A stretch of DNA of 33,387 nt, taken from positions 1-33,387 of IMG/VR virus record IMGVR_UViG_3300046804_005583; one strand, given 5' to 3'. A model generated the notes under the pieces. That model searched no databases. It saw only the letters and a program-made list of their open reading frames with translations, and was not told the DNA's origin. Positions 3,611 to 33,264 of this stretch are shown here, in pieces. Both the position numbers and the translations under genes were made by a program. Position 1 is the first letter of the stretch; the number at the start of each line of letters is the position of its first letter. The DNA is from a virus.

Positions 3611-4989
3611 TGGCTAATAACAATCCAGACAGCATTAATCGTGCTGGTGATGTAAGAATAGAAAAACTTGCTTTAATTTCTTCTGATAATAAAACTATTG
3701 ATTTATCAGAATTTTTAATTGAGCTTAATATTTACGAAGACATATTTAGTAACTATCTTCAAGGTAATATAGTTTTAACTGATAGTAGAAACTTAATTGA
3801 AAAACTTAACATTCATGGCGAAGAGGTCTTGCTTGTAAAAATTAGAACTCCATCTCTTGATGAAACAAGTGTCATAAAAAAGACATTTAGAACTTTTAAA
3901 ATTTCTGATAGAAAAATAGTAAGAGATAATAATACACAAAATTTTATTATACATTTTGTTTCCGCAGAACTTTATGTTGATGTTCTTCTACCATTATTTG
4001 TTTCATTTGAAGGTGATATAGACACTGTAGTAGAAAATATTTTTAATAATTATATTGCTACCAATACTCAATTCGAATTAAGTGAAGAAAAAAATAATGC
4101 TGATGTCAAACCAGATATTAGCCCGCTTATTATTTTAAATAGTTCTTCAAACAGAGTTAAATTTGTCTCTCCTGGATGGTCTCCGTTTAAATGTATAAAC
4201 TGGTTAGCTACTAAATCTATTCCTAAAGATGGTAATGCTAAAAACTTTTTATTTTTTGAATCTTCTAAGGCTTTTTATTTTGGTTCAATAGAATATATTT
4301 TAAAAAATGCTATAGAAACAAACAATATAATTGGAACTTACACAATCGCAGCTTCTAACCTAACCGGTAATGACAATAAGAAAGACTTAAGTAGAGAATA
4401 TTTTTTAGCTAAAGATGTGGAAATGGTAAATACCGTTGACCAAATACAAAATTTTACTAACGGGTTTTTAGCAAATAGATTATTATTTTTAGATATTCAT
4501 AATAAAATATATGATGTAATAGATTATGATTATGTAGAAGAATACAAGTCTCAGTACCATACCTCTGGTAAAGGTAGTGAATCGATACCACCGTTCTCAA
4601 CCAACTCATTGAGAAACTTTGCAACTAGTATAAGTTTTTATCCTAAAAATCCAAAATTATTTAATGATTTTACTGATAATGTAAATGAGAAAATGGATGT
4701 AATTTATGGTAATAGAAAGTCTAGTATGTTAGACTTAAGTAATATAAAAATGAACATTACTGTACCTGGTCGCACAGATATCGAAGTAGGTAGATTACTT
4801 TACTTTTTATATCCTTCACTAGGAGGTAAAGAAGAAGCAGATAAGAGTTTTGTTCAGCAAGATACTTTATACTCAGGTTATTATTTAATTACTGCTATTA
4901 ACCATAAAATTAATAGACATGAACATACTATGACTATGGAAATCGTTAAAGATTCTCTTAATGTAAATAATTTAAGTGCTAAAAAATAA
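3610..4989 (+). CDS. 27: gp27-like baseplate hub protein
   Basis: A 459-residue protein in the position expected for gp27, just before gp5. T4 gp27 (391 residues) is a trimeric ring that holds the gp5 spike. Visible features fit: an N-terminal segment with LSEFLIELNIYEDIFSNYLQ and GNIVLTDSRNLIEKLNIHGE, typical of the first hub barrel, and a C-terminal segment with VGRLLYFLYPSLGG, SGYYLITAINHKI and HEHTMTMEIVKDSL, which resembles the last barrel of gp27 and the gpD-type hub fold. The middle is Asn/Lys-rich and may hold insertions relative to T4. It overlaps gp53 and gp5 by one base each. The assignment rests on position plus terminal motifs. Confidence 0.78.
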   Translation: MANNNPDSINRAGDVRIEKLALISSDNKTIDLSEFLIELNIYEDIFSNYLQGNIVLTDSRNLIEKLNIHGEEVLLVKIRTPSLDETSVIKKTFRTFKISDRKIVRDNNTQNFIIHFVSAELYVDVLLPLFVSFEGDIDTVVENIFNNYIATNTQFELSEEKNNADVKPDISPLIILNSSSNRVKFVSPGWSPFKCINWLATKSIPKDGNAKNFLFFESSKAFYFGSIEYILKNAIETNNIIGTYTIAASNLTGNDNKKDLSREYFLAKDVEMVNTVDQIQNFTNGFLANRLLFLDIHNKIYDVIDYDYVEEYKSQYHTSGKGSESIPPFSTNSLRNFATSISFYPKNPKLFNDFTDNVNEKMDVIYGNRKSSMLDLSNIKMNITVPGRTDIEVGRLLYFLYPSLGGKEEADKSFVQQDTLYSGYYLITAINHKINRHEHTMTMEIVKDSLNVNNLSAKK

Positions 4990-6071
4990 TGCAAAGAATA
5001 TTTAACAAAGACGGGTTTAATTGGTGGATTGGTTGTGTTGAAGATAGAATGGACCCTGAAAAAATGGGTCGTTGCAAAGTAAGAATATTTGGCTACCATA
5101 CTGATAACAAGCAACTACTACCAACTAAAGACTTACCTTGGTGCGTACCTATTCAACCAATTACATCAGCTGCAATTTCGGGGGTAGGTTCATCACCTTT
5201 AGGTCCGGTAGAAGGAACTTGGGTTATAGGGTTCTTTTTAGATGGTGAAGATATGCAACAACCCGCTATGTTTGGAACCATAGCTACTAGATCATTAGGT
5301 GGGTTTGCAGGTATTGAAGAACCAGATACACTAACTAATCCTAATGATGGTATAGTTAGAGATCAGGGAGGTCGTCCTGTATTAGATGATCAAGGCAACC
5401 CGGTAAGATCTGGAACACCTGCTGTAGATGGATGGGAAATAGGTCAAACATCTGAATCGTTTGAATCCGGGGGACGTGGACCGGGTACTATAAATGCTTA
5501 TGCTAACTCCGGAGACACAGGAGGAGCATCTTATGGTACATATCAATTTGCATCTTATTTACCTCAAAGAAATCCAGTGACAGGCGCATCAAGACCATCC
5601 AGTAAAAATTCTCCTGTAATTCAATTTATTAATGGAAGTAAATTTAAAGAAATGTTTGCTGGATTAGAACCAGCGACTTCTGCTTTTGATAATAAGTGGA
5701 GAGAGGTGGCTAGTAAGTATCCTAAAGATTTTGAAAATGAGCAACATGAGTATGTAAGAAAAAATTATTATAATGTTATGGTAGCAAACTTACAGCGCCA
5801 AGGATTAAATTTATCTAATTACGGGCCTGGAGTACAAGATCTAATTTGGTCAACAGCTGTACAATTCGGTCCAGCTAGAACCGCTATATTTACTGAACCA
5901 TTAAAAGGTAAAAGTACATTAACAGATACTGATATAATTAATTTAGTAAGCGAATATAAAAAGAACAATGTTAACGTTTTCTTTAAATCTAGCGGAGCTT
6001 CTATACAAACAAGTCAACGTAATAGATACGCGTCTGAACAAGCAGCACTATTAAGGTTAGTTACAGCATGA
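4989..6071 (+). CDS. 5: gp5 N-terminal part: OB-fold plus lysozyme-like domain
   Basis: A 360-residue protein. Residues 1-105 match the T4 gp5 OB-fold: GCVEDRMDPEKMGRCKVRIFG, then LPWCVPIQPITSAAISGVG, SPLGPVEGTWVIGFFLDGED and a short FGT strand. Residues about 150-355 are not T4-lysozyme-like. They carry FESGGRGPG (candidate catalytic Glu159), GGASYGTYQFAS and DLIWSTAVQFGPA, which resemble the C-terminal muramidase domain of VgrG3-type spike proteins. The likely role is local cell-wall digestion during tail penetration. Unlike T4 gp5, the protein ends here and the beta-helical needle is a separate downstream gene overlapping by four bases (ATGA). The OB-fold call is firm; the hydrolase family is by resemblance. 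Confidence 0.85.
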   Translation: MQRIFNKDGFNWWIGCVEDRMDPEKMGRCKVRIFGYHTDNKQLLPTKDLPWCVPIQPITSAAISGVGSSPLGPVEGTWVIGFFLDGEDMQQPAMFGTIATRSLGGFAGIEEPDTLTNPNDGIVRDQGGRPVLDDQGNPVRSGTPAVDGWEIGQTSESFESGGRGPGTINAYANSGDTGGASYGTYQFASYLPQRNPVTGASRPSSKNSPVIQFINGSKFKEMFAGLEPATSAFDNKWREVASKYPKDFENEQHEYVRKNYYNVMVANLQRQGLNLSNYGPGVQDLIWSTAVQFGPARTAIFTEPLKGKSTLTDTDIINLVSEYKKNNVNVFFKSSGASIQTSQRNRYASEQAALLRLVTA

Positions 6072-8302
6072 AAGATATTTTATCACAGCAGATTAATGGT
6101 GCATTATCTAACGCGATTTTTAATCAAGTCAGAGGTTTAGGGGTAAATATACCTTCACCTTTATTACAACGAGTAGTATCTCAAGTTGCTGAAAGAGCAT
6201 CGATTTTAGTTTCGTCAAATGTAGTCTCTCAAACTAACTATAATTTAACAGACATACCAAAAAATTTATTAGGTAATAAAAACCCGGTTAATATGACTAC
6301 CAGTAATTTAGGTAGCACTGGTATTTCAAATAACCTAGGTAATTTATTACAAACTCAATTATCTAGTCAACTAACTAATCAAATAGTGGTTCTACTTCAA
6401 AGTGAATTAGCAAGTGTATTGCCAGCTAATTTATTAGGTATTATTAATGTTAATAATCTTGCTAATTCTTTTCTACAAGGGTTAACACCAACTATCAATA
6501 GCACGATAAATCAAACTTTAAACACAGTTTCACAAAATTTATTTAAATCTAAAAAACCATCTACTGAAGTACCAGCCGATCAAGGTCAGTATGGTAATAT
6601 TCAAGCTAGTAAGGCATTAGAAGCTGCTAGAAACTTTAATCCATTTGAAGGTGAAAATGCTCAAAAGCTAGAAGCTAATAATAAAGGGTTTAGAGATCCA
6701 AACGCTAATTACCCTAAAGTAGAATATAAAAACGAACCTGAAACAAATAAATTAGCTAGGGGTGATATTAAAGGTACTATCGTTCAAGAAAAAAATGACG
6801 ATAGAATGCTCGGTGCAAAATTGCCCGGTGGTTCTTCATGGGAACAACCTACTTCTCCGTATAAAGGAGAATACCCTTATAATAAAGTTACACAAACAGA
6901 ATCCGGTCACGTTATTGAAGTAGATGATACACCTGGTGCTGAAAGAGTTCACGTATACCATAAATCAGGAACATTTATTGAGATAGATTCTACAGGTAGC
7001 TTTGTAAAAAGATCAAAAGGTTCTTCTTACGAAATTGTAGATAGAAATGGTAAAATAGCTATTTCTGGTAAAGCAGACATATCAGTTAATGGTGCTTGTA
7101 ATATATTTGTAGGTAATGATGCTAATATTGAAGTAGAAGGTGATACTAATATTTTATGTCATAATGATATAACAGCCATGGCTGGTGGTAAATTAAATTT
7201 ATCAGCTGTTGAAGATGTTAATATTGCTGGTGGTAATGTACGTCTACAAGCATTTAATAATTTTGATATTACTTCCAATGTTAATTTAAACCTGCATACG
7301 GATAAGACTATTCATATGCATAGTAATACAGAGATTAAAGTGCAAGCAGAAGATTATTATAACAAATTATCTGGTAGTATGTTTAATCAAGCCGCTGGTG
7401 AATTTCACTTTAAATCTTCTGGTACATTTAATGTTGATGGTAGTGAGGCTTATATTAACTCCGGTAACTCTCAAGACTCTCAAGAAAGTAAAGTAGCTGG
7501 TGTTTCTCAAATAGGATTATTAACAGGTAAGTATGGTGTTAATGGTAGAAAAGATATCGTGGTGGTTGAGATAGATGATCCAGTTCCTTTAACTATAGCA
7601 GATAGAGATTCAACTATTTTAGATGAGCCCGGTGCAACTTCTTCTCAGTTAAAATCTCAACGTGATAAAAAGCTATTTAGTGGCTTTGCTACAGCTCAAG
7701 AAGTTGATTCAGTTCCACCAGAATTAGAAACCTTCTCTACATCATCTCAACAAAATAACTTCGTACCGGCTAATCCTGAATTGCTAAAAGCTACTTTATT
7801 GCCTGGTAACTTTAAACTATCTCCAAACTTTACGTTAGAGATGTTGTCTTCTAAAGCACCCGCATCTACTGGTAATTTCCTAAGAAACTTTACTGCCGGT
7901 GGTAAGACGTTTAGTTATGGAGAACTAGCATTTAACTTACAAGCAGTCGCTCTTAATATATGTGAACCCGTATTAAAGATCTACCCGGATATGTTCGTGA
8001 CTTCAGGGTTTAGAAATTACAATACTGGTGATGAAAGTAGATTATCTCAGCATGTTAAAGGCCAGGCTGTTGATATTCAGTTCCACGGTTTACCTAAGTC
8101 TAAGTATTTTGAACGAGCAAAAGAATTAGCTAAAGCATTAAAGTACGATCAATTTTTATTAGAGTATAAAACTGATGGTACGGGCATGCCCTGGATTCAT
8201 ATATCGTATGTTGACCCGGCATCTAAGGCTACTAATAGATCTCAAGTTTTAACTTTCTTTAATCATAAGACTAAAGGCCCTGGTTTAATTAGGCTAGCGT
8301 AA
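6068..8302 (+). CDS. gp5 C-terminal needle fused to an M15-type peptidase
   Basis: A 744-residue protein in three parts. Residues 1-165 are rich in Leu, Gln, Asn and Ser, look helical, and have no T4 counterpart. Residues about 258-465 match the T4 gp5 needle: SPYKGEYPYNKV, then ESGHVIEVDDTPGAERVHVY, GTFIEIDSTG, and repeated VxVxGxxNIxV-type strands ending in VDGSEAYINSG. Residues about 575-744 are an M15-type zinc peptidase with TSGFRN, SQHVKGQAVD (His662, Asp669) and WIHISY (His711), the expected three zinc ligands. The family cleaves D-Ala-containing peptidoglycan peptides. Marine T4-like phages have similar proteins annotated VrlC. The gene sits between gp5N and the PAAR tip. Confidence 0.85.
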   Translation: MKDILSQQINGALSNAIFNQVRGLGVNIPSPLLQRVVSQVAERASILVSSNVVSQTNYNLTDIPKNLLGNKNPVNMTTSNLGSTGISNNLGNLLQTQLSSQLTNQIVVLLQSELASVLPANLLGIINVNNLANSFLQGLTPTINSTINQTLNTVSQNLFKSKKPSTEVPADQGQYGNIQASKALEAARNFNPFEGENAQKLEANNKGFRDPNANYPKVEYKNEPETNKLARGDIKGTIVQEKNDDRMLGAKLPGGSSWEQPTSPYKGEYPYNKVTQTESGHVIEVDDTPGAERVHVYHKSGTFIEIDSTGSFVKRSKGSSYEIVDRNGKIAISGKADISVNGACNIFVGNDANIEVEGDTNILCHNDITAMAGGKLNLSAVEDVNIAGGNVRLQAFNNFDITSNVNLNLHTDKTIHMHSNTEIKVQAEDYYNKLSGSMFNQAAGEFHFKSSGTFNVDGSEAYINSGNSQDSQESKVAGVSQIGLLTGKYGVNGRKDIVVVEIDDPVPLTIADRDSTILDEPGATSSQLKSQRDKKLFSGFATAQEVDSVPPELETFSTSSQQNNFVPANPELLKATLLPGNFKLSPNFTLEMLSSKAPASTGNFLRNFTAGGKTFSYGELAFNLQAVALNICEPVLKIYPDMFVTSGFRNYNTGDESRLSQHVKGQAVDIQFHGLPKSKYFERAKELAKALKYDQFLLEYKTDGTGMPWIHISYVDPASKATNRSQVLTFFNHKTKGPGLIRLA

Positions 8303-23154: not shown

Positions 23155-24384
23155 ATGGCAACTTTAGTTCTAAGAACAGTTAAGGGCACACCGCTAACCA
23201 ACGCGGAAGTCGATGGTAACTTCTCTAATATTAATTCAGAAGTTGGAACAGCATTTAACACTGCTAATACCATTAACTCTAATGTTGGTATTCTATCTAA
23301 CTTAACTACTTCTGCAAAATCCAATTTAGTTGCAGCCATTAATGAGATTGCAGCTGAGTCTACGTCTAGTGTAGGTATCACCGGTGGATCGATAGCTAAC
23401 GTTACATTGTCTAATGTAACGGTTACGGGTTTAGGCATATCGGGAATTACAACTGCTAACGTAACTGAACTTTCTAACCTTTATTTTACTAACGCCAGAG
23501 TTTTAGCTAACGTAGAACTTGCTGGATTTTATAACACAGTTTCAAATACTGCTCCAATTGGTGCTTCTGAATCAGGTACTACTTTAAGCATCACTCACTT
23601 AAATTCCGGTGTTACAGCTGCCACGTATGGTAATGCTACTAACATTCCAATTATAACTATAGATGCTTCTGGTCATATTACTTCAGCATCTAATGTTGCT
23701 TTAACAGCATCAGGAGGAGGTGGGTCTGGTTTATTTAATACTGCTATCTCAGCTGCTGGTAATGTAGCGGTTGATACTACTGCAGCAAACGTATATGCTG
23801 CACCTTCTACAGCAGGTAAGAGATACATTATTCATTCGATTCATATTACTAATATTGATGGAACAAATCCAGCTGAAGTTACTGCTCAAATTATTGGCTC
23901 TACATATTCCAGTATTTCTTTCGGTAACACAATTCCTGTTCCAGCAGGCACATCGGTGGAACTATTAAAGAAACCAAAAATTTTACAACCCAGTGATTAT
24001 ATTAGCTTAAATGCTAACGTTGATTCTCGAGTACATGCAACAGCTACTATTGAAGAAGTTACTGGCACTAATCATTTTGGTGCTGGTATAGATATTACAT
24101 CAGCAGGAGTCTATACAAATCTACATACTGCAACTGCAGCGTCCGTTATTGAAAGCGTGTTGTTATCTAATGATGACCCTACTCTGGACGTAAAAGCACG
24201 CGTAGTGGTAACTGATAGTATTAATAATATCGTAGGTTACTATGCTTATGATTTAATTGTCCCGGCTGATTCAACAGTGGAACTTTTAGAACAACCTAAG
24301 TATTTACCTAACGGATTTAAGGTTAGAGTATATGCTAACCAACCTAATCGTTTAGAAGCTATCATAGCAGGTAAGGTGATTTAA
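23155..24384 (+). CDS. tail-fibre-like structural protein with duplicated C-terminal domain
   Basis: A 409-residue protein. The N-terminus has GTPLTNAEVDGNFSNIN and LTTSAKSNLVAAINEI, both common at the start of phage tail fibre proteins. Residues about 80-190 are Thr/Asn/Ser-rich with a triple-beta-type pattern. The C-terminal half holds two related domains of about 105 residues: the first has IIHSIHITNIDGTNPAEVTA and PVPAGTSVELLKKPKILQ, the second VIESVLLSNDDPTLDVKARV and IVPADSTVELLEQPKYLP. There are no cysteines. It likely forms part of a fibre with the neighbouring RCC1 proteins; the one-base gap to the next gene (TAATATG) suggests co-translation. Confidence 0.7.
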   Translation: MATLVLRTVKGTPLTNAEVDGNFSNINSEVGTAFNTANTINSNVGILSNLTTSAKSNLVAAINEIAAESTSSVGITGGSIANVTLSNVTVTGLGISGITTANVTELSNLYFTNARVLANVELAGFYNTVSNTAPIGASESGTTLSITHLNSGVTAATYGNATNIPIITIDASGHITSASNVALTASGGGGSGLFNTAISAAGNVAVDTTAANVYAAPSTAGKRYIIHSIHITNIDGTNPAEVTAQIIGSTYSSISFGNTIPVPAGTSVELLKKPKILQPSDYISLNANVDSRVHATATIEEVTGTNHFGAGIDITSAGVYTNLHTATAASVIESVLLSNDDPTLDVKARVVVTDSINNIVGYYAYDLIVPADSTVELLEQPKYLPNGFKVRVYANQPNRLEAIIAGKVI

Positions 24385-24385
24385 T

Positions 24386-26581
24386 ATGCCAGCAACAACC
24401 AAAGGTGCGTGGAGACTTCAAGAAGTACGTGATGCTGTTTTAGCAGGTGAATGGGTAACTTATAATATAAATAATGACCCAGGGTCCCTATGGGCATGGG
24501 GTTGTGGTAATGAGGGCGTATTAGGAAACAATACAGCTTCAGTTTTTAGTTCCCCTGTTCAAATACCTGGAGATAATTGGGTTAAAATTTCAGCAGGTTG
24601 TGCATCTTTAGCGACGAAGCTAGACGGTACATTATGGACTTGGGGTGCTAATGGAAACTATGGTAGATTAGGGGTAAACTTAGGATCAAGCGTATTATGT
24701 TACAGCTCTCCAGTTCAGATTCCAGGTAATACCTGGAAGGATATTGATACTTCTACTTTCGTACACGGAGCTACTAAAACAGATGGTACGTTATGGACTT
24801 GGGGACTTAATAACAGAGGTCATTTAGGTGATGGAACAGGAATTACTCGTAGCTCTCCAGTACAGGTACCTGGTAATAACTGGTCTATTATATCTTTTAA
24901 TCAAAGTGCTAGCCATGCGTTAAAAACCGATGGTACACTATGGGGCTGGGGAGGTGAGCGATATTCAGGAGAAGTTGGTGATGGTTTAAATCCCTCTAGA
25001 AGTTCTCCAGTTCAAGTTCCAGGTGCATGGATAGATGTATGTGGTACATATCATACAACCTTTGGAAGAAAGTCTGATGGTACTTTATGGGCATGGGGAA
25101 ACAATGCAAGTGGTAGACTTGGGGATAATACTATAATTCCTAAAAGTTCTCCAATTCAGATTCCAGGTACTCAATGGGCATCATTCTCTGGCAGAATTCA
25201 TACTGTAGCAATAAAAACCGATGGGACTTTATGGGCTTGGGGTAATAATGGCTACGGTAGATTAGGTGATGGAACTACAATTTGCAGAAGCTCACCAGTA
25301 CAAGTACCAGGCAGTAATTGGGCATGTGTAAGCGCAGGCACAGGTACTTTAGCACGTAAAACAGACGGTACATTATGGGGAATGGGATACAATAATTTTG
25401 GTTTAGTTGGAGATAACACAAATACCGCGAGATCTTCCCCGGTACAAATTCCAGGCTCCAACTGGACTAATATTAGCGCTGGGTCACCGCATTCCCTGGC
25501 TAAAAAATCCTATACACCCTTCTTTTACGATGTTTTAGGTACACATTTATGGAGTTGGGGGCTCGCGCAATATGGGCAGCTAGGTGATAATACAACAATA
25601 CCTAAAAATTCTCCTATACAAATACCAGGTGCTAATTGGACTGGAATTTCTGGTGGGCAAAATCATGGCTTAGCCAGAAAGACTGATGGTACGCTGTGGG
25701 CTTGGGGAGCTAATTATAACGGTAGATTAGGGGATAATACAACATCACTTCGAAGTTCACCAGTACAAATTCCGGGTAATTCTTGGTGCCTTGTTGCTAC
25801 TGGAGCATCACAAACTTTAGGAATAAAAACTGATGGTACCTTATGGTCATGGGGTTATAATGGTACTGGTCGATTAGGGGATAATTCCACAATCGATAGA
25901 AGTTCACCAGTACAAATTCCGGGTAATTCTTGGTGTAAGGCTGTTAGCGGAAATCATCAAGGCCTGGCTCTTAAAACCGATGGAACTTTATGGGCATGGG
26001 GATGTAATAATAATGGTAGATTAGGTGATAATACAGCAATACATAGAAGTTCACCGGTACAAATTCCTGGTACATCTTGGAATGATATTTCATTTTTTTC
26101 ATCTTCTACCCATTCTTTAGCCAGAAAGACAGACGGTACATTATGGGGTTGGGGGGATGGCGGTCAAGGGCGATTAGGAGATAACACTATAATACAAAGA
26201 AGTTCACCAATACAAATACCGGGTACTAATTGGAATGATATTGCTAGTGGAGCTGCTCATTCTGCAGCAAGAAAGACTGATGGAACCTTGTGGATTTGGG
26301 GAAGTAACGGTCAAGGGCGATTAGGTGATAATACCACAATACCTAAAAGCTCTCCTATACAAATACCGGGTACTAATTGGAATGATATTTCTATTAATTA
26401 CCATTCTTTTGCTAGAAAGACTGACGGTACGTTATGGTCATGGGGAGATAATTCTAATGGCAAATTAGGGGATAGTACATCAATCGCTAGAAGTTCACCA
26501 GTACAAATACCGGGTAATTGCTGGACTGATGTAAACGCTACACACAGCTTCTCATTAGCAATTAAATGTTTTACAGGTTAA
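24386..26581 (+). CDS. double seven-bladed RCC1 propeller fibre protein A
   Basis: A 731-residue protein. Residues 1-33 carry the KGAWRLQEVRDAVLAGEW motif seen at attachment points in other phage fibre proteins. From residue 34 there are fourteen RCC1 repeats of about 47-57 residues with consensus TLWxWGxNxxGRLGDNTxIxRSSPVQIPGxxW. Seven precede and seven follow a distinct linker (KKSYTPFFYDVLGTHLWSWG, about residues 370-390), as expected for two consecutive seven-bladed beta propellers. It ends with NCWTDV...CFTG. RCC1 propellers are protein or ligand binding platforms, so a distal receptor-binding role is proposed. No signal peptide or enzyme motif is seen. A paralogue lies at 27432-29657. 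Confidence 0.85.
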   Translation: MPATTKGAWRLQEVRDAVLAGEWVTYNINNDPGSLWAWGCGNEGVLGNNTASVFSSPVQIPGDNWVKISAGCASLATKLDGTLWTWGANGNYGRLGVNLGSSVLCYSSPVQIPGNTWKDIDTSTFVHGATKTDGTLWTWGLNNRGHLGDGTGITRSSPVQVPGNNWSIISFNQSASHALKTDGTLWGWGGERYSGEVGDGLNPSRSSPVQVPGAWIDVCGTYHTTFGRKSDGTLWAWGNNASGRLGDNTIIPKSSPIQIPGTQWASFSGRIHTVAIKTDGTLWAWGNNGYGRLGDGTTICRSSPVQVPGSNWACVSAGTGTLARKTDGTLWGMGYNNFGLVGDNTNTARSSPVQIPGSNWTNISAGSPHSLAKKSYTPFFYDVLGTHLWSWGLAQYGQLGDNTTIPKNSPIQIPGANWTGISGGQNHGLARKTDGTLWAWGANYNGRLGDNTTSLRSSPVQIPGNSWCLVATGASQTLGIKTDGTLWSWGYNGTGRLGDNSTIDRSSPVQIPGNSWCKAVSGNHQGLALKTDGTLWAWGCNNNGRLGDNTAIHRSSPVQIPGTSWNDISFFSSSTHSLARKTDGTLWGWGDGGQGRLGDNTIIQRSSPIQIPGTNWNDIASGAAHSAARKTDGTLWIWGSNGQGRLGDNTTIPKSSPIQIPGTNWNDISINYHSFARKTDGTLWSWGDNSNGKLGDSTSIARSSPVQIPGNCWTDVNATHSFSLAIKCFTG
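24485..26560 (+). repeat. fourteen RCC1 repeats, protein A
   Basis: Units of about 141-170 bases. Some neighbours are still near-identical at the DNA level; for example 25752-25788 and 25899-25935 match over 37 bases at an offset of 147 bases, exactly one blade. Confidence 0.85.
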
Positions 26582-26603
26582 ATAAAACACAGGATTCAAA
26601 AGA

Positions 26604-27428
26604 ATGAAATATTTTAAGTTTACTCAGATAGATGCCAATACAGGTATTTCTTGGGCAATTAAACAACCTATCTCTGGTCCATCATGGCCTAGCATTCCGG
26701 GATTAAATGTTGCTACAGCTATTCAACTTGCACATAGCCCGATTTACTACATATCTAAAGTTGATGTAGATGCATTAAATGCTCAATTATTAAGTGATTG
26801 GCAAGCTAAGGTAGATGCTCAACAACCTACTGAAGAGAATCCTAACCCGGAAAGCATTCCGCAACCAGACCCAATCGTCATAGTTGCTGATCCTGATAAT
26901 CACTTCTTTGAGTTAACGTTAGAAGAATATGCTAATGAGCTTAAAGAACATGTAATGATTCAACTGAATAATGAAAAAAATACTATCTACCAACAAGAAG
27001 CTGATTTTAGAAACAATATTTTTACACCTTACCACGACACAGCTACTATTGCCGGTGTCTACAAATACAATCAGGCTAAAGAACTAGTTGCTGACGAAAC
27101 AGCTGCAGCACCTGACGTAAGAGCAGAAGCAACAGCCAGAGGTGTAACACCGGTAGTCATGGCTAATAGAATTATCCAAAACCACGAGAGTTTTAGAGCA
27201 AAAGAAGCTAAAATAGCCGGTATTCGCGGTAAAATTCAAGATAGAATTAACGCATTTAGTTTTGATATGCAAGATCCAGAAGGCTCTTTATCCGAATTTA
27301 AAGCAGAAGAAACGATTGGTACATCTAAAGGTATGGTATTTGAAAATGGTGAGATGGTAGAAAAAGATATAAACGTTAAGGTACATAAGTATTCCCTAAG
27401 CCTCTCCACTAGATTTCAATACGAGTAA
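26604..27428 (+). CDS. probable tail-fibre assembly protein
   Basis: A 274-residue protein between the two RCC1 genes. The N-terminal 60 residues (MKYFKFTQIDANTGISW and ISGPSWPSIPGLN) are followed by a Pro/Glu/Asn-rich linker near residue 75. Residues about 115-225 are helical, with YKYNQAKELVADE, PDVRAEATARGVTPVVMANRI and AKIAGIRGKIQDRINAF. The pattern YxxKxxEA...AEAxxxG...VAxxI...IxxIRxxxxxxI is widespread in proteins encoded beside phage tail fibres and often annotated as fibre assembly. It could act as chaperone for both RCC1 proteins or be a structural adaptor. It has its own 22-base leader without a clear ribosome-binding site. Confidence 0.5.
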   Translation: MKYFKFTQIDANTGISWAIKQPISGPSWPSIPGLNVATAIQLAHSPIYYISKVDVDALNAQLLSDWQAKVDAQQPTEENPNPESIPQPDPIVIVADPDNHFFELTLEEYANELKEHVMIQLNNEKNTIYQQEADFRNNIFTPYHDTATIAGVYKYNQAKELVADETAAAPDVRAEATARGVTPVVMANRIIQNHESFRAKEAKIAGIRGKIQDRINAFSFDMQDPEGSLSEFKAEETIGTSKGMVFENGEMVEKDINVKVHKYSLSLSTRFQYE

Positions 27429-27431
27429 AAT

Positions 27432-29657
27432 ATGACCGGTATAACTTGTAATACTAAAGGTGTTTGGAATATTGATGATACTTACAAAAAGGCGTTGAGC
27501 GACTATTGGGTACGTTATAATGTTAATAATGATGGCGCGCAGTTATGGAGTTGGGGAAAAGCTGATGCTGGGGAATTAGGTAATAATTCAACTATTTACC
27601 GTACTTCTCCTATTCAGGTACCGGGAAACAGCTGGCTAAAAATTTGTGGTGGTAGATATAATGCATTAGCTCTTAAAACAGATAACTCTTTATGGGCATG
27701 GGGACAAAATACGTATGGTCGTTTAGGAGATAATACCACTATTATAAGAAGTTCGCCAGTTCAAATTCCAGGTAATAGTTGGTGTACTATGTCTATGGGG
27801 GGGCTTCTTGGTGCTGGAATAAAAAACGACGGTACATTATGGACATGGGGATTTAATGCACAATGTAATTTAGCAGATGGTACAACTATCCCAAGAAGTT
27901 CACCAATTCAAATTCCAGGTACTGCATGGACATGTGTATCTACGGGTTGCGTGCATTCTTTAGCTCTTAAATCCGATAATACTTTATGGGGATTTGGATA
28001 TAATGGTTCTGGAAATTTAGGAAATAATTCAACTATAAATGCTAATTCCCCAGTTCAAATTCCCGGTACTAGCTGGTGTTGTATTGTAACATCACCTAAT
28101 TCATCGCATGGATTAAAAACCGATGGTACATTATGGGGATGGGGAGCAAATAGTAACTGTAATTTAGGAGATAGTACAACGATACCTAGAAGTTCACCGG
28201 TACAAATACCCGGTAATAGTTGGGTGGATGTCGGTACAAGGGTTAATGGAGCCTTAGCAAGAAAATCTGATGGTACATTATGGTCATGGGGGTTTGGTAA
28301 TTACGGTTTGATAGGGGATAACACCATGATTGGTAAAAATTCTCCTATACAAATACCCGGTACTAGTTGGAATGATGTGACTAGAAGTTTTGGTAATAAT
28401 GTTCATGCACGTAAAACCGATGGAACTTTATGGGGATGGGGACAAAATTCGTACGGAAGAATAGGAGATGGTACGAGTTCTTATAGAAGTTCACCGGTAC
28501 AGGTACCAGGAACTAATTGGTTAGATATGACTGGATTACTTCGTACAACGGTTGCTAGAAAATCTTACACTCCCCCTACATTTTACGATGTTTTAGGTAC
28601 GCATTTATGGAGTTGGGGTTACAATAATTGGGGTCAAATTGGTGATAACACGGTTATTCATAGATGTTCCCCAGTAAATTTAACAGGTGCAAGATGGACG
28701 CAAGTATTTGGTAACAACACTTCTTTAGCACTTAAAAATGATAATACACTTTGGGCTTGGGGGCTAAATTTACAAAACAGTAGAGGCTCTGTAGGTGATA
28801 ATACTATTATTGATAAAAGCTCACCGGTACAAATCCCTGGTACAGCCTGGTGCTTTATAGCAGGCACGCGTTATACTTCTCATGCTTTAAAAACAGACGG
28901 AACATTATGGGGTTGGGGAAATAATCAAAGTAGTAGTTATGGTACAATAGGTGATGGTACAGTTTCTTACAGAAGTTCACCAGTTCAAATACCTGGTACA
29001 AGTTGGAGTGAAGTAGCAGGTGGTAGATTCTTCGCACTAGGACGTAAAACGAATGGTACGTTATGGGCATGGGGTAATAATTATAGAGGAGCTTTAGGGG
29101 ATGGTACGGTTATTCAAAGAAATTCTCCAGTACAAGTCCCTGGTACAAGTTGGACCGGTATTGCAGGTATAGATGCTACAGCGTTTGCTCGTAAAAGTGA
29201 TGGTACTTTATGGAGCTGGGGTAGTGCTGGCAACTATGGCCTTTTAGGTAACGATTCAATGATTCATAGAAGTTCTCCAATGCAAATACCTGGTACTAAC
29301 TGGAATGATATTTCTAACGGTCATTATGTTGCTTTAGCGCGTAAGAACGATGGTACTTTATGGAGCTGGGGTAGAAACTATCAAGGCCGTTTAGGAAACG
29401 GCACAGATACAATTCCTAGAAGTTCCCCAATTCAGATTCCAGGCACCCAATGGTGTGATATGTCCAGCGGAAGAAATGCTAGTTTTGCAATTAAGACGGA
29501 TGGTACTTTATGGGGCTGGGGTAGAAATTATTTAGGTGGTTTGGCTGATGGTACCTCTATTAATAGATGCTCCCCAACACAAGTACCGGGTAATTGCTGG
29601 TTAAGTGTAAGCAGTAATTGGATGACTACTTTAGCAACTAAATGCTTTACAGGATAA
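27432..29657 (+). CDS. double seven-bladed RCC1 propeller fibre protein B
   Basis: A 741-residue paralogue of protein A with the same plan: a short KGVWNIDDTYKKALSDYW attachment motif, seven RCC1 repeats, a KSYTPPTFYDVLGTHLWSWG linker, seven more repeats, and an NCWLSV...CFTG end. Blades differ from protein A mainly in the positions after LWxWG and after GDxT, the loops that would line one propeller face. Repeats 9 and 10 are a few residues longer than average (NLQNSRGSVG, NNQSSSYGTIG). The linker DNA is almost identical to that of A although the N-termini have diverged. It probably forms a second or alternative receptor-binding tip. Confidence 0.85.
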   Translation: MTGITCNTKGVWNIDDTYKKALSDYWVRYNVNNDGAQLWSWGKADAGELGNNSTIYRTSPIQVPGNSWLKICGGRYNALALKTDNSLWAWGQNTYGRLGDNTTIIRSSPVQIPGNSWCTMSMGGLLGAGIKNDGTLWTWGFNAQCNLADGTTIPRSSPIQIPGTAWTCVSTGCVHSLALKSDNTLWGFGYNGSGNLGNNSTINANSPVQIPGTSWCCIVTSPNSSHGLKTDGTLWGWGANSNCNLGDSTTIPRSSPVQIPGNSWVDVGTRVNGALARKSDGTLWSWGFGNYGLIGDNTMIGKNSPIQIPGTSWNDVTRSFGNNVHARKTDGTLWGWGQNSYGRIGDGTSSYRSSPVQVPGTNWLDMTGLLRTTVARKSYTPPTFYDVLGTHLWSWGYNNWGQIGDNTVIHRCSPVNLTGARWTQVFGNNTSLALKNDNTLWAWGLNLQNSRGSVGDNTIIDKSSPVQIPGTAWCFIAGTRYTSHALKTDGTLWGWGNNQSSSYGTIGDGTVSYRSSPVQIPGTSWSEVAGGRFFALGRKTNGTLWAWGNNYRGALGDGTVIQRNSPVQVPGTSWTGIAGIDATAFARKSDGTLWSWGSAGNYGLLGNDSMIHRSSPMQIPGTNWNDISNGHYVALARKNDGTLWSWGRNYQGRLGNGTDTIPRSSPIQIPGTQWCDMSSGRNASFAIKTDGTLWGWGRNYLGGLADGTSINRCSPTQVPGNCWLSVSSNWMTTLATKCFTG
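27540..29636 (+). repeat. fourteen RCC1 repeats, protein B
   Basis: Fourteen LWxWG...SPxQxPGxxW units of about 48-58 residues, seven on each side of the FYDVLG linker. One unit has LWGFG in place of LWxWG, and unit 8 has SPVNLTGARW in place of the usual SPVQIPGxxW. Confidence 0.85.
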
Positions 29658-29673
29658 ATTTAAATAAAATTTT

Positions 29674-30291
29674 ATGAATTTTTATTCTTTATTATGTGTA
29701 ATACCTGATTTTGTTCCTGATAACATCATTCAGACCCTACTTAAATTAAAGTCAGATGATTATTCACCTGCTCTAGTAGGGTCTAATGATGATCAAAAAG
29801 AAACTGATTATAGACGGACTAAATGGTTAAATTTACCACCTGATATTCATCAGTATCTTTCTAATTCTATACCAATAATACATGAAAAAAATTTACAATC
29901 TATATTTAAATCTAGCATTAAAAATATAGAACCACCTCAATTTTTAAGATATGATGTAGGTGATCATTACGATAAACACAACGATTCTGAATCGTATGTT
30001 AAAAATAAATTAAAAAGAGTAACCAATAGAGATATATCTTTACTTCTTTATCTTAATGATGATTACGAAGGCGGTGAACTAGAATTTACTAAACTACAAC
30101 TTACTATCCGACCTAAGAAAGGAATGCTTATTGCATTTCCTTCTTATGAAGACTTTGAACACAAAGTACATCCCGTAACAAAAGGAACCAGATACACTAT
30201 TGTAAGCTGGATTGAAACTGAAAAGAGAATATATGACCGACCATATGAGTCCCCAGCAAATTTACCAAGAACATGGGTTTTATCTAGTTAA
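29674..30291 (+). CDS. 2-oxoglutarate/Fe(II) oxygenase, prolyl-4-hydroxylase type
   Basis: A 205-residue protein. The core FLRYDVGDHYDKHNDSE aligns with the P4H pattern RYxxGxxYxxHxD, giving iron ligands His102 and Asp104. A YLNDDYEGGELEF strand follows, then the distal His163 (FEHKVHPV) and Arg173 (GTRYTIVSW) ten residues later, the usual 2-oxoglutarate-binding base. It should hydroxylate a side chain using O2 and 2-oxoglutarate; the substrate is not visible. It follows the second RCC1 gene by 16 bases without a clear ribosome-binding site, and its last 59 bases overlap the next gene. Confidence 0.85.
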   Translation: MNFYSLLCVIPDFVPDNIIQTLLKLKSDDYSPALVGSNDDQKETDYRRTKWLNLPPDIHQYLSNSIPIIHEKNLQSIFKSSIKNIEPPQFLRYDVGDHYDKHNDSESYVKNKLKRVTNRDISLLLYLNDDYEGGELEFTKLQLTIRPKKGMLIAFPSYEDFEHKVHPVTKGTRYTIVSWIETEKRIYDRPYESPANLPRTWVLSS

Positions 30292-30850
30292 GAATTTCAT
30301 ACCTAGAGTATTAGCTAATTACCTTAAAGAAATCTTACACACTTTAAGGGTAACTAATCAGTTAGGTAATGGTGATGCTCAGGTAGAAAACTCATTTACT
30401 GTTTATGGTAATCCAGCATTTGATACCTTTGGCTATTTAAGTACTCCATCCTTCTCTCAAATTATAGGTAAACCATTAAGTTTTACCTATACCTATTCTA
30501 GAGTTTATTTAAATAACGCAGCTTTATTACCTCACATTGATAGAGCTGAGTGCGAGCATTCAGTTACATTATTCTTAGGGGGTAACTACTCACAACTATG
30601 GCCTATATGGATGCAACAAGTAAATAAAGACCCTGAGGCTGTAGTATTAGAAGAAGGTGACTGTGTAGTTTATCAAGGTAATAAACTTAATCATTGGAGA
30701 GATCATTTTGAAGGTACAGACTATTACCAATTGTTTATGCATTACGTAGAAGCAGACGGGCAGTATAAAGATAAAATTTTTGATACTAGACCATACTTTG
30801 GATTACCAGGTTCAACAAAACGTGATTATGGACATACAAACAATAAATGA
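30233..30850 (+). CDS. 2-oxoglutarate/Fe(II) oxygenase, second type
   Basis: The frame is open from a TTG at 30212; the ATG at 30233 preceded by AAAGAGAA is preferred (205 residues), and an ATG at 30245 giving MSPQQIYQEHGFYLVKNFIP is also plausible. The pattern VYLNNAALLPHIDRAECEHS gives His101 and Asp103 (numbered from 30233). LEEGDCVVYQGNKLNHWRDHF gives distal His154, followed by YYQLFMHYVEADG. This matches a phage and bacterial oxygenase family with a PHxDR ... HWR signature, distinct from the upstream P4H type. The product and substrate are unknown. It overlaps the upstream oxygenase by 59 bases and the next gene by 23. Confidence 0.78.
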   Translation: MTDHMSPQQIYQEHGFYLVKNFIPRVLANYLKEILHTLRVTNQLGNGDAQVENSFTVYGNPAFDTFGYLSTPSFSQIIGKPLSFTYTYSRVYLNNAALLPHIDRAECEHSVTLFLGGNYSQLWPIWMQQVNKDPEAVVLEEGDCVVYQGNKLNHWRDHFEGTDYYQLFMHYVEADGQYKDKIFDTRPYFGLPGSTKRDYGHTNNK

Positions 30851-32012
30851 TCTTGCTAAGAAATACTATGATCAAAAAGACTTTAAACAAGCACTTCAAC
30901 TTCTAGATAGACCTGATCTTCCTCCAGAACTAATTCCTAATTTAGCTAAATGTTACTATTATACAAGTCAAGCTGATAAAGCTCTTGAGTTAGTTCTACC
31001 ATTAGAAAAATCTCACGAATCATGGATTGATACCGCTCTTTATTACAATGCTATCGGTGATCATAAAAAAGCATTTGAAATTTATAACACTCTAGATCAA
31101 AATGATCCTAAAGTCTTATTTAATTCAGGTTGGCATTATCTTAGAAACAATGAATTTAAAGAAGGGTTTAAACGAATAGTTCATGGTGATCAATGTAGGG
31201 CATGGGGTCACGAATACATTCATATTGAACAAGGTGTTCTTAATAAAAAAGATCGCTGGAATAATGAATTTACCGATCACCTTCTGTTAATTTTAGAAGG
31301 TGGTATAGGTGATGAGATTATCTTTTTAAGATGGGCTGATTATTTAAAAACAAAATGTAACACTTTAAGTATACTTTGTAACCCGGGTCTTTTACGGTTA
31401 CTAACAAATTCAGGTTACCATGTCTACCCTCATAATTTTATAGATAAACTTAATTATACTGCGTATTGCCCTGGTATGTCGTTACCGGCTATCTGTGATT
31501 TTAACTCTCCTCAAGAACAAGTAGATCTGCCTTATATCAATACTTTCCATGAACCGTTTATTACTAGACAGCTAGATATGGTTAGTAGGGGTCGTAAAAA
31601 GATAGGAGTTAAATTTTACGGTAATCAAGAGTTTGAGCATGACCAGTTTCGTACTCCACCAAGACAGGCCCTAGAGTCATTACAGCAACACGGTCAACTT
31701 TTCTCATTGCAATTAGAGGAAGAAGACGGTATAATACCTAATTGTAAGCATTTAATAAAAGACTGGCAAGACACGTATTCTATATTTAAAAGTTTAGATT
31801 TATTAGTTACTTCTTGTACTTCTACTGCACATTTAGCTGGGGCTATGGGTATTAAAGCTATTGTTCTAGTACCATTAGTTCCGTATTTTGTTTGGGCATC
31901 AGACGATATGCCTTGGTATGGTGATAATATTACGGTAATACGGCAAACTAAGTATAATGATTGGACAGAAGCAATTGAACTACTACATAAAAAAGTAGAA
32001 GAATTATTATGA
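30828..32012 (+). CDS. TPR protein with GT9-like glycosyltransferase domain
   Basis: The frame opens at 30780, but the ATG at 30828 (MDIQTINDLAKKYYDQKDFK) starts directly with a TPR helix and is preferred, giving 394 residues. Residues 1-120 are TPR-like helical pairs (LAKCYYYTSQADKALEL, ALYYNAIGDHKKAFEIYNTL). Residues about 145-394 resemble a GT-B glycosyltransferase of the GT9/TPR-linked kind: LLLILEGGIGDEIIFLRWAD, and near the end LLVTSCTSTAHLAGAMGIKA, then VWASDDMPWYGD. The Asp often found before the TxxAHLAG motif is Cys here, which I believe also occurs in other TPR-linked members. The acceptor is unknown. Its end overlaps the next gene by four bases (ATGA). Confidence 0.72.
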   Translation: MDIQTINDLAKKYYDQKDFKQALQLLDRPDLPPELIPNLAKCYYYTSQADKALELVLPLEKSHESWIDTALYYNAIGDHKKAFEIYNTLDQNDPKVLFNSGWHYLRNNEFKEGFKRIVHGDQCRAWGHEYIHIEQGVLNKKDRWNNEFTDHLLLILEGGIGDEIIFLRWADYLKTKCNTLSILCNPGLLRLLTNSGYHVYPHNFIDKLNYTAYCPGMSLPAICDFNSPQEQVDLPYINTFHEPFITRQLDMVSRGRKKIGVKFYGNQEFEHDQFRTPPRQALESLQQHGQLFSLQLEEEDGIIPNCKHLIKDWQDTYSIFKSLDLLVTSCTSTAHLAGAMGIKAIVLVPLVPYFVWASDDMPWYGDNITVIRQTKYNDWTEAIELLHKKVEELL

Positions 32013-32677
32013 AACCTGTAATAGTTACCGGGTATAATAATAATATTGACCCTAAGGTGGTTTACTATCAGCGTATGGTAGTAGATAAACTTAGAGGTCC
32101 AGTACCTTTTTTTGCTTATGATTATACTGGGTCTGATATGTTACACGGTGATGTATGTAACAAATTAGTTCATAAGATGTTTTATGAGTATCAAGACGGT
32201 TTTGATTGCATTTTATTTTTAGACATTGATTGTATTCCACTATCTGAAAAAGCAATTCACTGGACTTTAGAGCAAGCCTATTCTGGGCAACTAGTAGGTA
32301 ATGCACAACGATCTAATCATTATGAAAACGATCAGCATGTATTTGCAGCTGTTTCATATGCAGCATTTACAAGAGATACTTTCGAGAAAGCTGGATCTCC
32401 TACTATGTGCTTTTCGAAAAAATATGATTGCTCAGAATTATTAACTGTTAATTGCGAGAGAAATAATATACCCGTGCAACTTCTTATGCCTTCAAAAAGT
32501 GATTCGCCTAATGAAGAAGGTGGGTATTGGAATTTAGCTGATGGTATGCCTAAGTATGGAATAGGAACCACATTCTCTAATGGTGATATGGATATAAGTT
32601 ATCATTTATTCTGCAGTCGGTTTCACAAGTATAATCGTTTATTTTTTAATCGTTGTCATAGCATTATTGTAAATTAA
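32009..32677 (+). CDS. GT-A-like glycosyltransferase
   Basis: A 222-residue protein. It begins KPVIVTGYNNNIDPKVVYYQ, followed by FDCILFLDIDCIPLSEKAI, in which Asp72-Ile-Asp74 is a DxD motif at the end of a hydrophobic strand, the metal and nucleotide-sugar site of GT-A enzymes. A later FAAVSYAAFTRDTFEKAG and a GDMDISYHLFCSRFHKYN segment could supply the acceptor side. It is shorter than most complete GT-A enzymes and may be a minimal version. It is coupled to the TPR glycosyltransferase by ATGA and to the next oxygenase by TAATG, so the three are made together. Confidence 0.65.
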   Translation: MKPVIVTGYNNNIDPKVVYYQRMVVDKLRGPVPFFAYDYTGSDMLHGDVCNKLVHKMFYEYQDGFDCILFLDIDCIPLSEKAIHWTLEQAYSGQLVGNAQRSNHYENDQHVFAAVSYAAFTRDTFEKAGSPTMCFSKKYDCSELLTVNCERNNIPVQLLMPSKSDSPNEEGGYWNLADGMPKYGIGTTFSNGDMDISYHLFCSRFHKYNRLFFNRCHSIIVN

Positions 32678-33264
32678 TGTATACTGATTATGTAGTATTT
32701 AATCCTAAAGTAGAAGAAGTAGCTACTGATATTCTTTTAGTTGAATTTTGGAAGCCAGAATTTTGTCAAGCTATTATTGAGGCTGCTGACAAAATTGATC
32801 AGTATGAGTCTAAACCAACTGACCCAGTTCCAGGACAAGAGTTAAGAATAGATGCAATTTCCAGAGACTTATATATTTCATTTTGTAAGCACTGGAAGCA
32901 AGTCATTCAACCGATACTTAACGAATTTTACATGCTTCCGGCCGAGCAATGGTTTAGTGGATGGAAAGTACCTTTCATTATAAAATACGAAATGAATAAG
33001 CAACGATATCTTAGACCTCATATGGATGGGTCTATGGTAACAGGTACGGTTAGACTAAATGATAAGTACACCGGTGGTGAATTAGTTTTTCCTAGACAGA
33101 AATATAAAAATACAAATGTGCCAGTTGGGTCTATGTTAATCTGGCCGAGCTCCATCCAACATATTCACTATTCAGATGAACTTAAATCCGGTACTAAGTA
33201 TTCGTTAGTAGCCTGGACTAAGAATGATAAGCGTGAATCTGGAATTAACTTCGACGAAGTATGA
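32677..33264 (+). CDS. 2-oxoglutarate/Fe(II) oxygenase, lysyl-hydroxylase (PLOD) type
   Basis: A 195-residue protein. FIIKYEMNKQRYLRPHMDGS gives His115 and Asp117; then VRLNDKYTGGELVFPRQ, and SSIQHIHYSDELKSGTKYSL gives distal His164 with Lys174 ten residues later in place of the usual Arg. The order RPHxDxS, YxGGexxF, HxH, GT(R/K)Y is that of the catalytic domain of collagen lysyl hydroxylases, which in animals and mimivirus create the hydroxylysine that is then glycosylated. Here the gene sits between two glycosyltransferase genes and overlaps the following one by four bases. The substrate is inferred, not shown. Confidence 0.8.
   Translation: MYTDYVVFNPKVEEVATDILLVEFWKPEFCQAIIEAADKIDQYESKPTDPVPGQELRIDAISRDLYISFCKHWKQVIQPILNEFYMLPAEQWFSGWKVPFIIKYEMNKQRYLRPHMDGSMVTGTVRLNDKYTGGELVFPRQKYKNTNVPVGSMLIWPSSIQHIHYSDELKSGTKYSLVAWTKNDKRESGINFDEV

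Follow-up and report, generated by a model that had tools for sequence, protein, structure and literature searches.

RCC1 propellers with one hypervariable face as probable adhesins in the tail module of a T4-like virus

The window analyzed here is a stretch of viral DNA of 33,387 nucleotides (IMG/VR record IMGVR_UViG_3300046804_005583, positions 1 to 33,387), and encodes a T4-like tail module with tail tube, tail-tube cap, and baseplate wedge and hub proteins. Two of its plus-strand genes, A (24386..26581, 731 aa) and B (27432..29657, 741 aa; both sets of coordinates were confirmed), each encode exactly 14 LWx[WMF]G repeats, nearly all of 48–53 aa. In both proteins the repeats are split 7+7 by a nearly identical non-repeat linker of 13–14 aa, SYTP..FYDVLGTH (SYTPFFYDVLGTH in A, 25508..25546; SYTPPTFYDVLGTH in B, 28563..28604), after which LWSWG comes next. 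Repeats 1–7, a putative first propeller, occupy 24488..25507 in A and 27543..28562 in B; repeats 8–14, the second, run from 25547 to 26578 and from 28605 to 29654, and both proteins end in KCFTG. Membership of the RCC1 family is far beyond chance: the two ORFs match Pfam RCC1 (PF00415) at E=8e-105 and 1.5e-82, or 344 and 272 bits against a curated cut-off of 21.7, and the best PHROG match is phrog_4219. The sequence-only reading, which described two genes of exactly 14 RCC1 repeats arranged 7+7 around a common linker and ending in CFTG, thus agrees with the ORFs, the repeat counts, the Pfam match and the C-termini. It had also assigned a short attachment motif to each N-terminus. Tags are indeed present, but they are two different, gene-specific ones: MPATTKGAWRLQEVRDAVLAGEWVTYN... 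in A (24386..24487) and ..TKGVWNIDDTYKKALSDYWVRYN.. in B (27432..27542), each specific to its position as judged from a list of N-termini and identity comparison between genomes.

Between A and B, on the same strand, lies a gene for a middle protein of 274 aa (26604..27428), whose family is flanked by RCC1 genes on both sides in every related locus where it was found. The protein had been put forward as a likely assembly factor. It matches no Pfam family. Its structural model is confident (pLDDT 90.6), matches no known fold in the PDB, and finds weak viral structure matches, including a DUF4376 phage protein; these are compatible with a role in assembly and lend it weak support. The flanking genes are also conserved. 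A fibre-like protein of 409 aa (23155..24384, plus strand) is kept directly 5′ of gene A in relatives, and a 2OG-Fe(II) oxygenase (29674..30291, plus strand) directly 3′ of gene B; where related loci are visible on these sides, fibre-like genes precede the cassette, and genes for 2OG oxygenase and TPR proteins follow it.

The place of this cassette in the tail module can be read against cultured phages. By the gp6-like protein, the closest cultured phages among the matches listed are Pelagibacter phage HTVC008M and others (35–41%), and a 2170-aa protein of the window is related to HTVC008M ‘VrlC’. In HTVC008M, the interval from VrlC to the 2OG-Fe(II) oxygenases contains genes whose annotations name baseplate wedge initiators and the assembly of L-shaped tail fibres. 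The RCC1 cassette occupies the window’s equivalent of that interval, such that A and B sit where HTVC008M keeps fibre genes, as would befit genes for receptor-binding proteins. The surroundings offer further observations. Next to the adhesin candidates is a cluster of 2OG-Fe(II) oxygenase-like genes (29674-30291, 30212-30850, 32677-33264) with a TPR protein gene (30780-32012), and in relatives a sulfotransferase-like gene lies 3′ of a third RCC1 gene; a role for these neighbors in modifying fibres or surface glycans is possible. Elsewhere in the module, the baseplate hub/tail lysozyme family phrog_430 matches two overlapping ORFs, 4989-6071 and 6068-8302, with profile positions 15–106 in the former and 322–551 in the latter, as if gp5 were split.

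Among relatives of the cassette, most encode single seven-repeat proteins, and doubled pairs were found in the window and in contig L013 only. Fourteen blades, offered earlier as a defining trait, is therefore the exception, with one propeller of seven as the norm. The idea of ‘paired’ genes also gives way. L013 carries three 14-repeat genes, the third with its own tag (MVTKNVFRLKKYYELVLAG). Contig L172 derives from a phage with a 195-aa gene 99.5% identical to the last complete gene of the window, and runs beyond the point where the window ends; about 1.5 kb past that homologue lies a third 14-repeat gene (L172:1512-3761) with a closely similar linker (SYTPPAPYDIIGTH), the ending KCYTG, and its own tag xTKNVFxL, which recurs in a third 14-repeat gene of another contig (L133:15806-17989). 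It is thus almost certain that the set in the window’s own phage numbers three, the third gene lying just beyond the window and absent from it because the window ends there. Among annotated phages, homologues of the tags were found in AG-345-E08 only. Six near-identical contigs (L097–L102) compared as a population were identical over 12.7 kb and gave no information.

What constitutes the structural unit of these proteins is best judged from repeat numbers. Clustering at 70% identity of the complete RCC1 ORFs from the viral loci fetched gave 128 clusters, and a repeat HMM counted 7 repeats in 107 of these, 14 in seven, 21 in two, and 28 and 42 in one each; the count is a multiple of seven in 118, and the 10 exceptions are mostly divergent or very long proteins. 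This distribution is stable over cut-offs from E<0.01 to E<5, and although fetching with a seven-repeat query favors proteins with at least seven repeats, it does not select against 8 to 13. The longest arrays, with 42, 28 and 21 repeats (L074:1096-7521, L039:688-8025, L047:5560-8925), would amount to six, four and three consecutive propellers. Tandem double propellers are also seen outside phages, in bacterial metagenome-assembled genomes (L136, L137) with 14-repeat RCC1 proteins of 33–40% identity. Quantization in sevens is the best evidence that the seven-repeat block is the unit: AlphaFold2 modeled gene A with four strands in each repeat, but at low confidence (pLDDT 62, pTM 0.57), and the model superposes poorly on closed RCC1 rings. 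That poor fit might suggest a single ring of 14 blades or an open superhelix, in which case ‘two propellers’ would not be a structural fact. We consider this very improbable given the sevens, the non-repeat linker that in A, B and the third gene alike follows precisely on repeat 7, the single seven-repeat proteins at the same loci, and the homology to the seven-bladed UVR8, HERC and RCC1 structures. The 7+7 counts and the sevens support two putative rings, each closed by one seven-repeat block.

Tags and propellers appear to follow different evolutionary rules. Over the first 26 aa in 11 genomes, identity between genomes is 58% for A against A and 47% for B against B, compared with 37% for A against B within a genome. 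First propellers from the same genomes show no such sorting by position: 55% for A–A and 52% for B–B between genomes, and 59% for A–B within a genome. In L013, A and B propellers are 77–81% identical (50–58% in the window) and two repeats of gene A are one base apart; the propeller tree, being poorly resolved, was used only for the tendency of same-genome propellers to group, which is clearest in L013. Propellers thus appear to be exchanged or homogenized within a genome while tags stay in place, and such exchange would explain how doubling could spread over a whole gene set.

Variation within the blades is concentrated in particular loops. In the four-strand meander, loop 1 (states 6–23) and loop 3 (37–39) would lie on one face and loops 2 and 4 on the opposite face, an assignment based on predicted strand order and the known RCC1 topology. 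The most variable states in the window are 38, 19, 39, 6, 9 and 40. Variable residues had been placed after LWxWG and after GDxT, and are found there, as well as in a third loop, GGxxHS, that had gone unnamed. Across all 28 blades of the window, the six-residue code is different in every one, and is rich in Asn, Tyr and Ser. By positional entropy alone the contrast between faces is borderline (p=0.056), as fixed residues, too, occur in loop 1. The variability profiles of the window and L013 agree closely (Spearman rho 0.85).

Relatives with less diverged repeats allow selection at these positions to be gauged. When blade i of A is compared with blade i of B in L013, loops 1 and 3 have nonsynonymous changes at 130 of 665 sites and synonymous changes at 12 of 214 (Fisher p=2e-7), with no nonsynonymous excess outside those loops. 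The near-identical repeats of L013 come from a metagenome assembly, in which short-read repeats may be misordered, as is known from the fungal case discussed below (PMC12222747). The pattern extends well beyond this contig: among loci of low synonymous divergence, pN exceeds pS at seven variable states in 27 of 28, and at the remaining states in one of 28. Here the locus was the unit of the test, since pairs compared within the same protein yield interdependent counts; and as the variable states had been picked on the basis of the window and L013, the other loci serve largely as a test set. Cellular RCC1 relatives, considered as a control, have repeats too diverged for pN/pS. The window’s own repeats are synonymously saturated, and by extension from its relatives the same diversifying selection probably acts on them. 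Whole genes tell a similar story: in the syntenic pair L103/L105 the RCC1 genes are 39, 55 and 57% identical and their neighbors 77–97%, and in L042/L046 the values are 74–84% and 91–99%. In relatives, then, RCC1 genes combine greater variability than their neighbors with diversifying selection on a predicted exposed face, both of which are expected of receptor-binding proteins.

Could the variable loops instead be the work of a diversity-generating retroelement, or of some other form of targeted mutagenesis, and not of ordinary mutation and recombination sifted by selection? The variable codons of L013 do vary at their first two bases and keep T at the third, much as mutagenized AAT codons would. 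Adenine-targeted mutagenesis should, however, also strike the AAT codons at states 7, 15 and 32, which never or hardly vary in L013. Nor does the 145-kb L013 record, itself possibly incomplete, contain a reverse transcriptase (RVT_1) or a separate template repeat, as all 42 repeat copies sit in the three genes; the window’s own genome is incomplete. With no reverse transcriptase, no template and the wrong base pattern in that record, we rejected a retroelement as the mechanism and regard it as scarcely credible.

Taken together, we put the probability at roughly three in four that A and B, and very probably the third gene, encode adhesins on the virion surface that are docked by their tags, bind the host through one hypervariable face, and are diversified by selection and recombination. 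Repeat counts, linker, tag specificity, within-genome propeller similarity, variable positions and the nonsynonymous excess there in relatives are read from sequence; for A and B themselves, we infer ring closure, a location in the virion, docking by the tag and binding of a receptor. A receptor-binding role had been suggested from the outset. The tail-fibre locus, the excess divergence and the one-face loop selection in relatives speak for it indirectly, as do fusion proteins that carry related propellers at the C-terminus, joined to tail-fibre, Laminin_G_3, Ig-like and collagen-like modules, even as the ‘paired’ and fourteen-blade elements of the suggestion have fallen away. Less tenable is the notion that such use of RCC1 folds is unusual, since phages commonly encode RCC1 proteins, and some have already been identified in virions: mass spectrometry identified three phrog_4219 RCC1 proteins in the W70 virion (PMC11370258), RCC1 proteins in that of phAPEC6 (PMC7247149), and one in that of GAP32 (PMC5259590).

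Another reading is that the proteins condense or organize DNA inside the capsid, which is how phage RCC1 proteins are currently annotated. PHROGs files phrog_4219, phrog_7220 and phrog_16766 under DNA, RNA and nucleotide metabolism, and the authors of the phAPEC6 (PMC7247149) and W70 (PMC11370258) studies suggested that virion RCC1 proteins act in DNA packing or in an inner body. For a protein binding DNA inside the capsid there is no reason to expect a fibre locus, fusions to fibre, lectin or collagen modules, divergence above that of neighboring genes, or a nonsynonymous excess in the loops of one face. The placement of these genes among tail-fibre genes and the occurrence of all the other features accordingly count against DNA condensation, which we judge quite improbable; the PHROG filing is probably a mis-annotation by fold name. 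Another prospect is that the proteins are exposed on the surface without being receptor-binding proteins, as decorations that bind glycans, mucus, debris or particles in a general way, or as a tail shield. Hairy surface appendages occur on phAPEC6 and CBB, the former having many RCC1 genes, and several RCC1 genes are present in many genomes. Strong diversifying selection at few positions nevertheless suits an evolving partner better than general stickiness, and the fibre-locus position likewise favors receptor binding, leaving decoration as unlikely.

If A and B are receptor-binding adhesins, a plausible mechanism can be outlined. A short, position-specific N-terminal tag would dock each protein at its own tail-fibre or baseplate site, and the body would be a seven-bladed RCC1 propeller, doubled in tandem in the lineage of the window. 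On one face, the loop following LWxWG..GDNT together with the GGxxHS loop would present about six hypervariable residues per blade to a variable host surface, with the strands and the opposite face serving as a fixed scaffold. Point changes favored by diversifying selection would create new specificities, as would recombination between blades, between propellers and between sibling genes within a genome. The same recombination would keep repeats alike, and may have let the doubled propeller spread across the gene set.

While phage RCC1 proteins as such are already known, the open-licence papers searched included none on RCC1 propellers as phage receptor-binding proteins, and no description of a doubled gene set with position-specific tags, of the separate evolution of tags and propellers, of the sevens or of the selection pattern. 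A broader reading, to which we give slightly better than even odds, is that RCC1 propellers are a widespread, mis-annotated class of receptor-binding protein in phages, diversified with no retroelement involved: blades would be shuffled and homogenized among repeats and position-tagged sibling genes, some six residues per blade on one face would be driven apart by selection, and propellers would be added in sevens, with tandem pairs perhaps acting as a two-ring clamp, as proposed for the fungal HET-E/HET-D. The PHROGs library and several papers now treat phage RCC1 proteins as DNA condensers; were they adhesins, aquatic and jumbo phages, some of which can be grown in the laboratory, would possess a class of host-recognition genes that has escaped notice. 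Such a repeat-built propeller, with recombining blades and propellers added in sevens, would provide another route, besides diversity-generating retroelements, to a variable binding face.

Several known systems provide points of comparison. The same cassette, tags and middle-protein family as in the window are found in marine virus AG-345-E08 and in IMG/VR contigs L009, L010 and L094–L096, which have single rather than tandem propellers. Phage RCC1 proteins of PHROG 4219 (such as W70_237-239), other virion RCC1 proteins (phAPEC6 gp549/gp551 and GAP32 gp001) and S-SRM01 gp335/337/344 belong to the same repeat family as A and B, but are annotated as functioning in DNA condensation, unlike the adhesin role favored here. 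In S-SRM01, two RCC1 genes likewise surround another gene beside fibre and TPR/2OG genes; its RCC1 proteins are only about 40 kDa, with six or seven repeats, and the gene between them has no clear homology to the window’s middle protein. Eukaryotic UVR8, HERC1/2 and RCC1 share the repeat and probably the seven-bladed fold, yet differ in their cellular roles, and GTPase exchange, ubiquitin and light-sensing functions find no support in A and B; kinship to RCC1, the Ran exchange factor, appears to be of fold only, and that function is not expected in a phage. Retroelement targets in phage tails resemble the present genes in placing rapidly varied recognition residues on a fixed scaffold, and differ in that L013 has no reverse transcriptase, template repeat or adenine pattern. 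The closest working analogue, albeit in a different fold family, is the recognition propeller of fungal HET-E/HET-D (HNWD), predicted to comprise two seven-bladed propellers forming a clamp (PMC12222747). Concerted evolution keeps its repeats similar, apart from a few hypervariable codons on which diversifying selection acts (PMC12222747). The repeats are of the WD40 rather than the RCC1 type, in an intracellular NOD-like receptor, and those of the window are much more diverged. Near-identical repeats are a feature of L013 (77–81% between propellers) and not of the window (50–58%), while few hypervariable codons under diversifying selection are seen, as in HET-E/HET-D, in L013 and 26 other loci.
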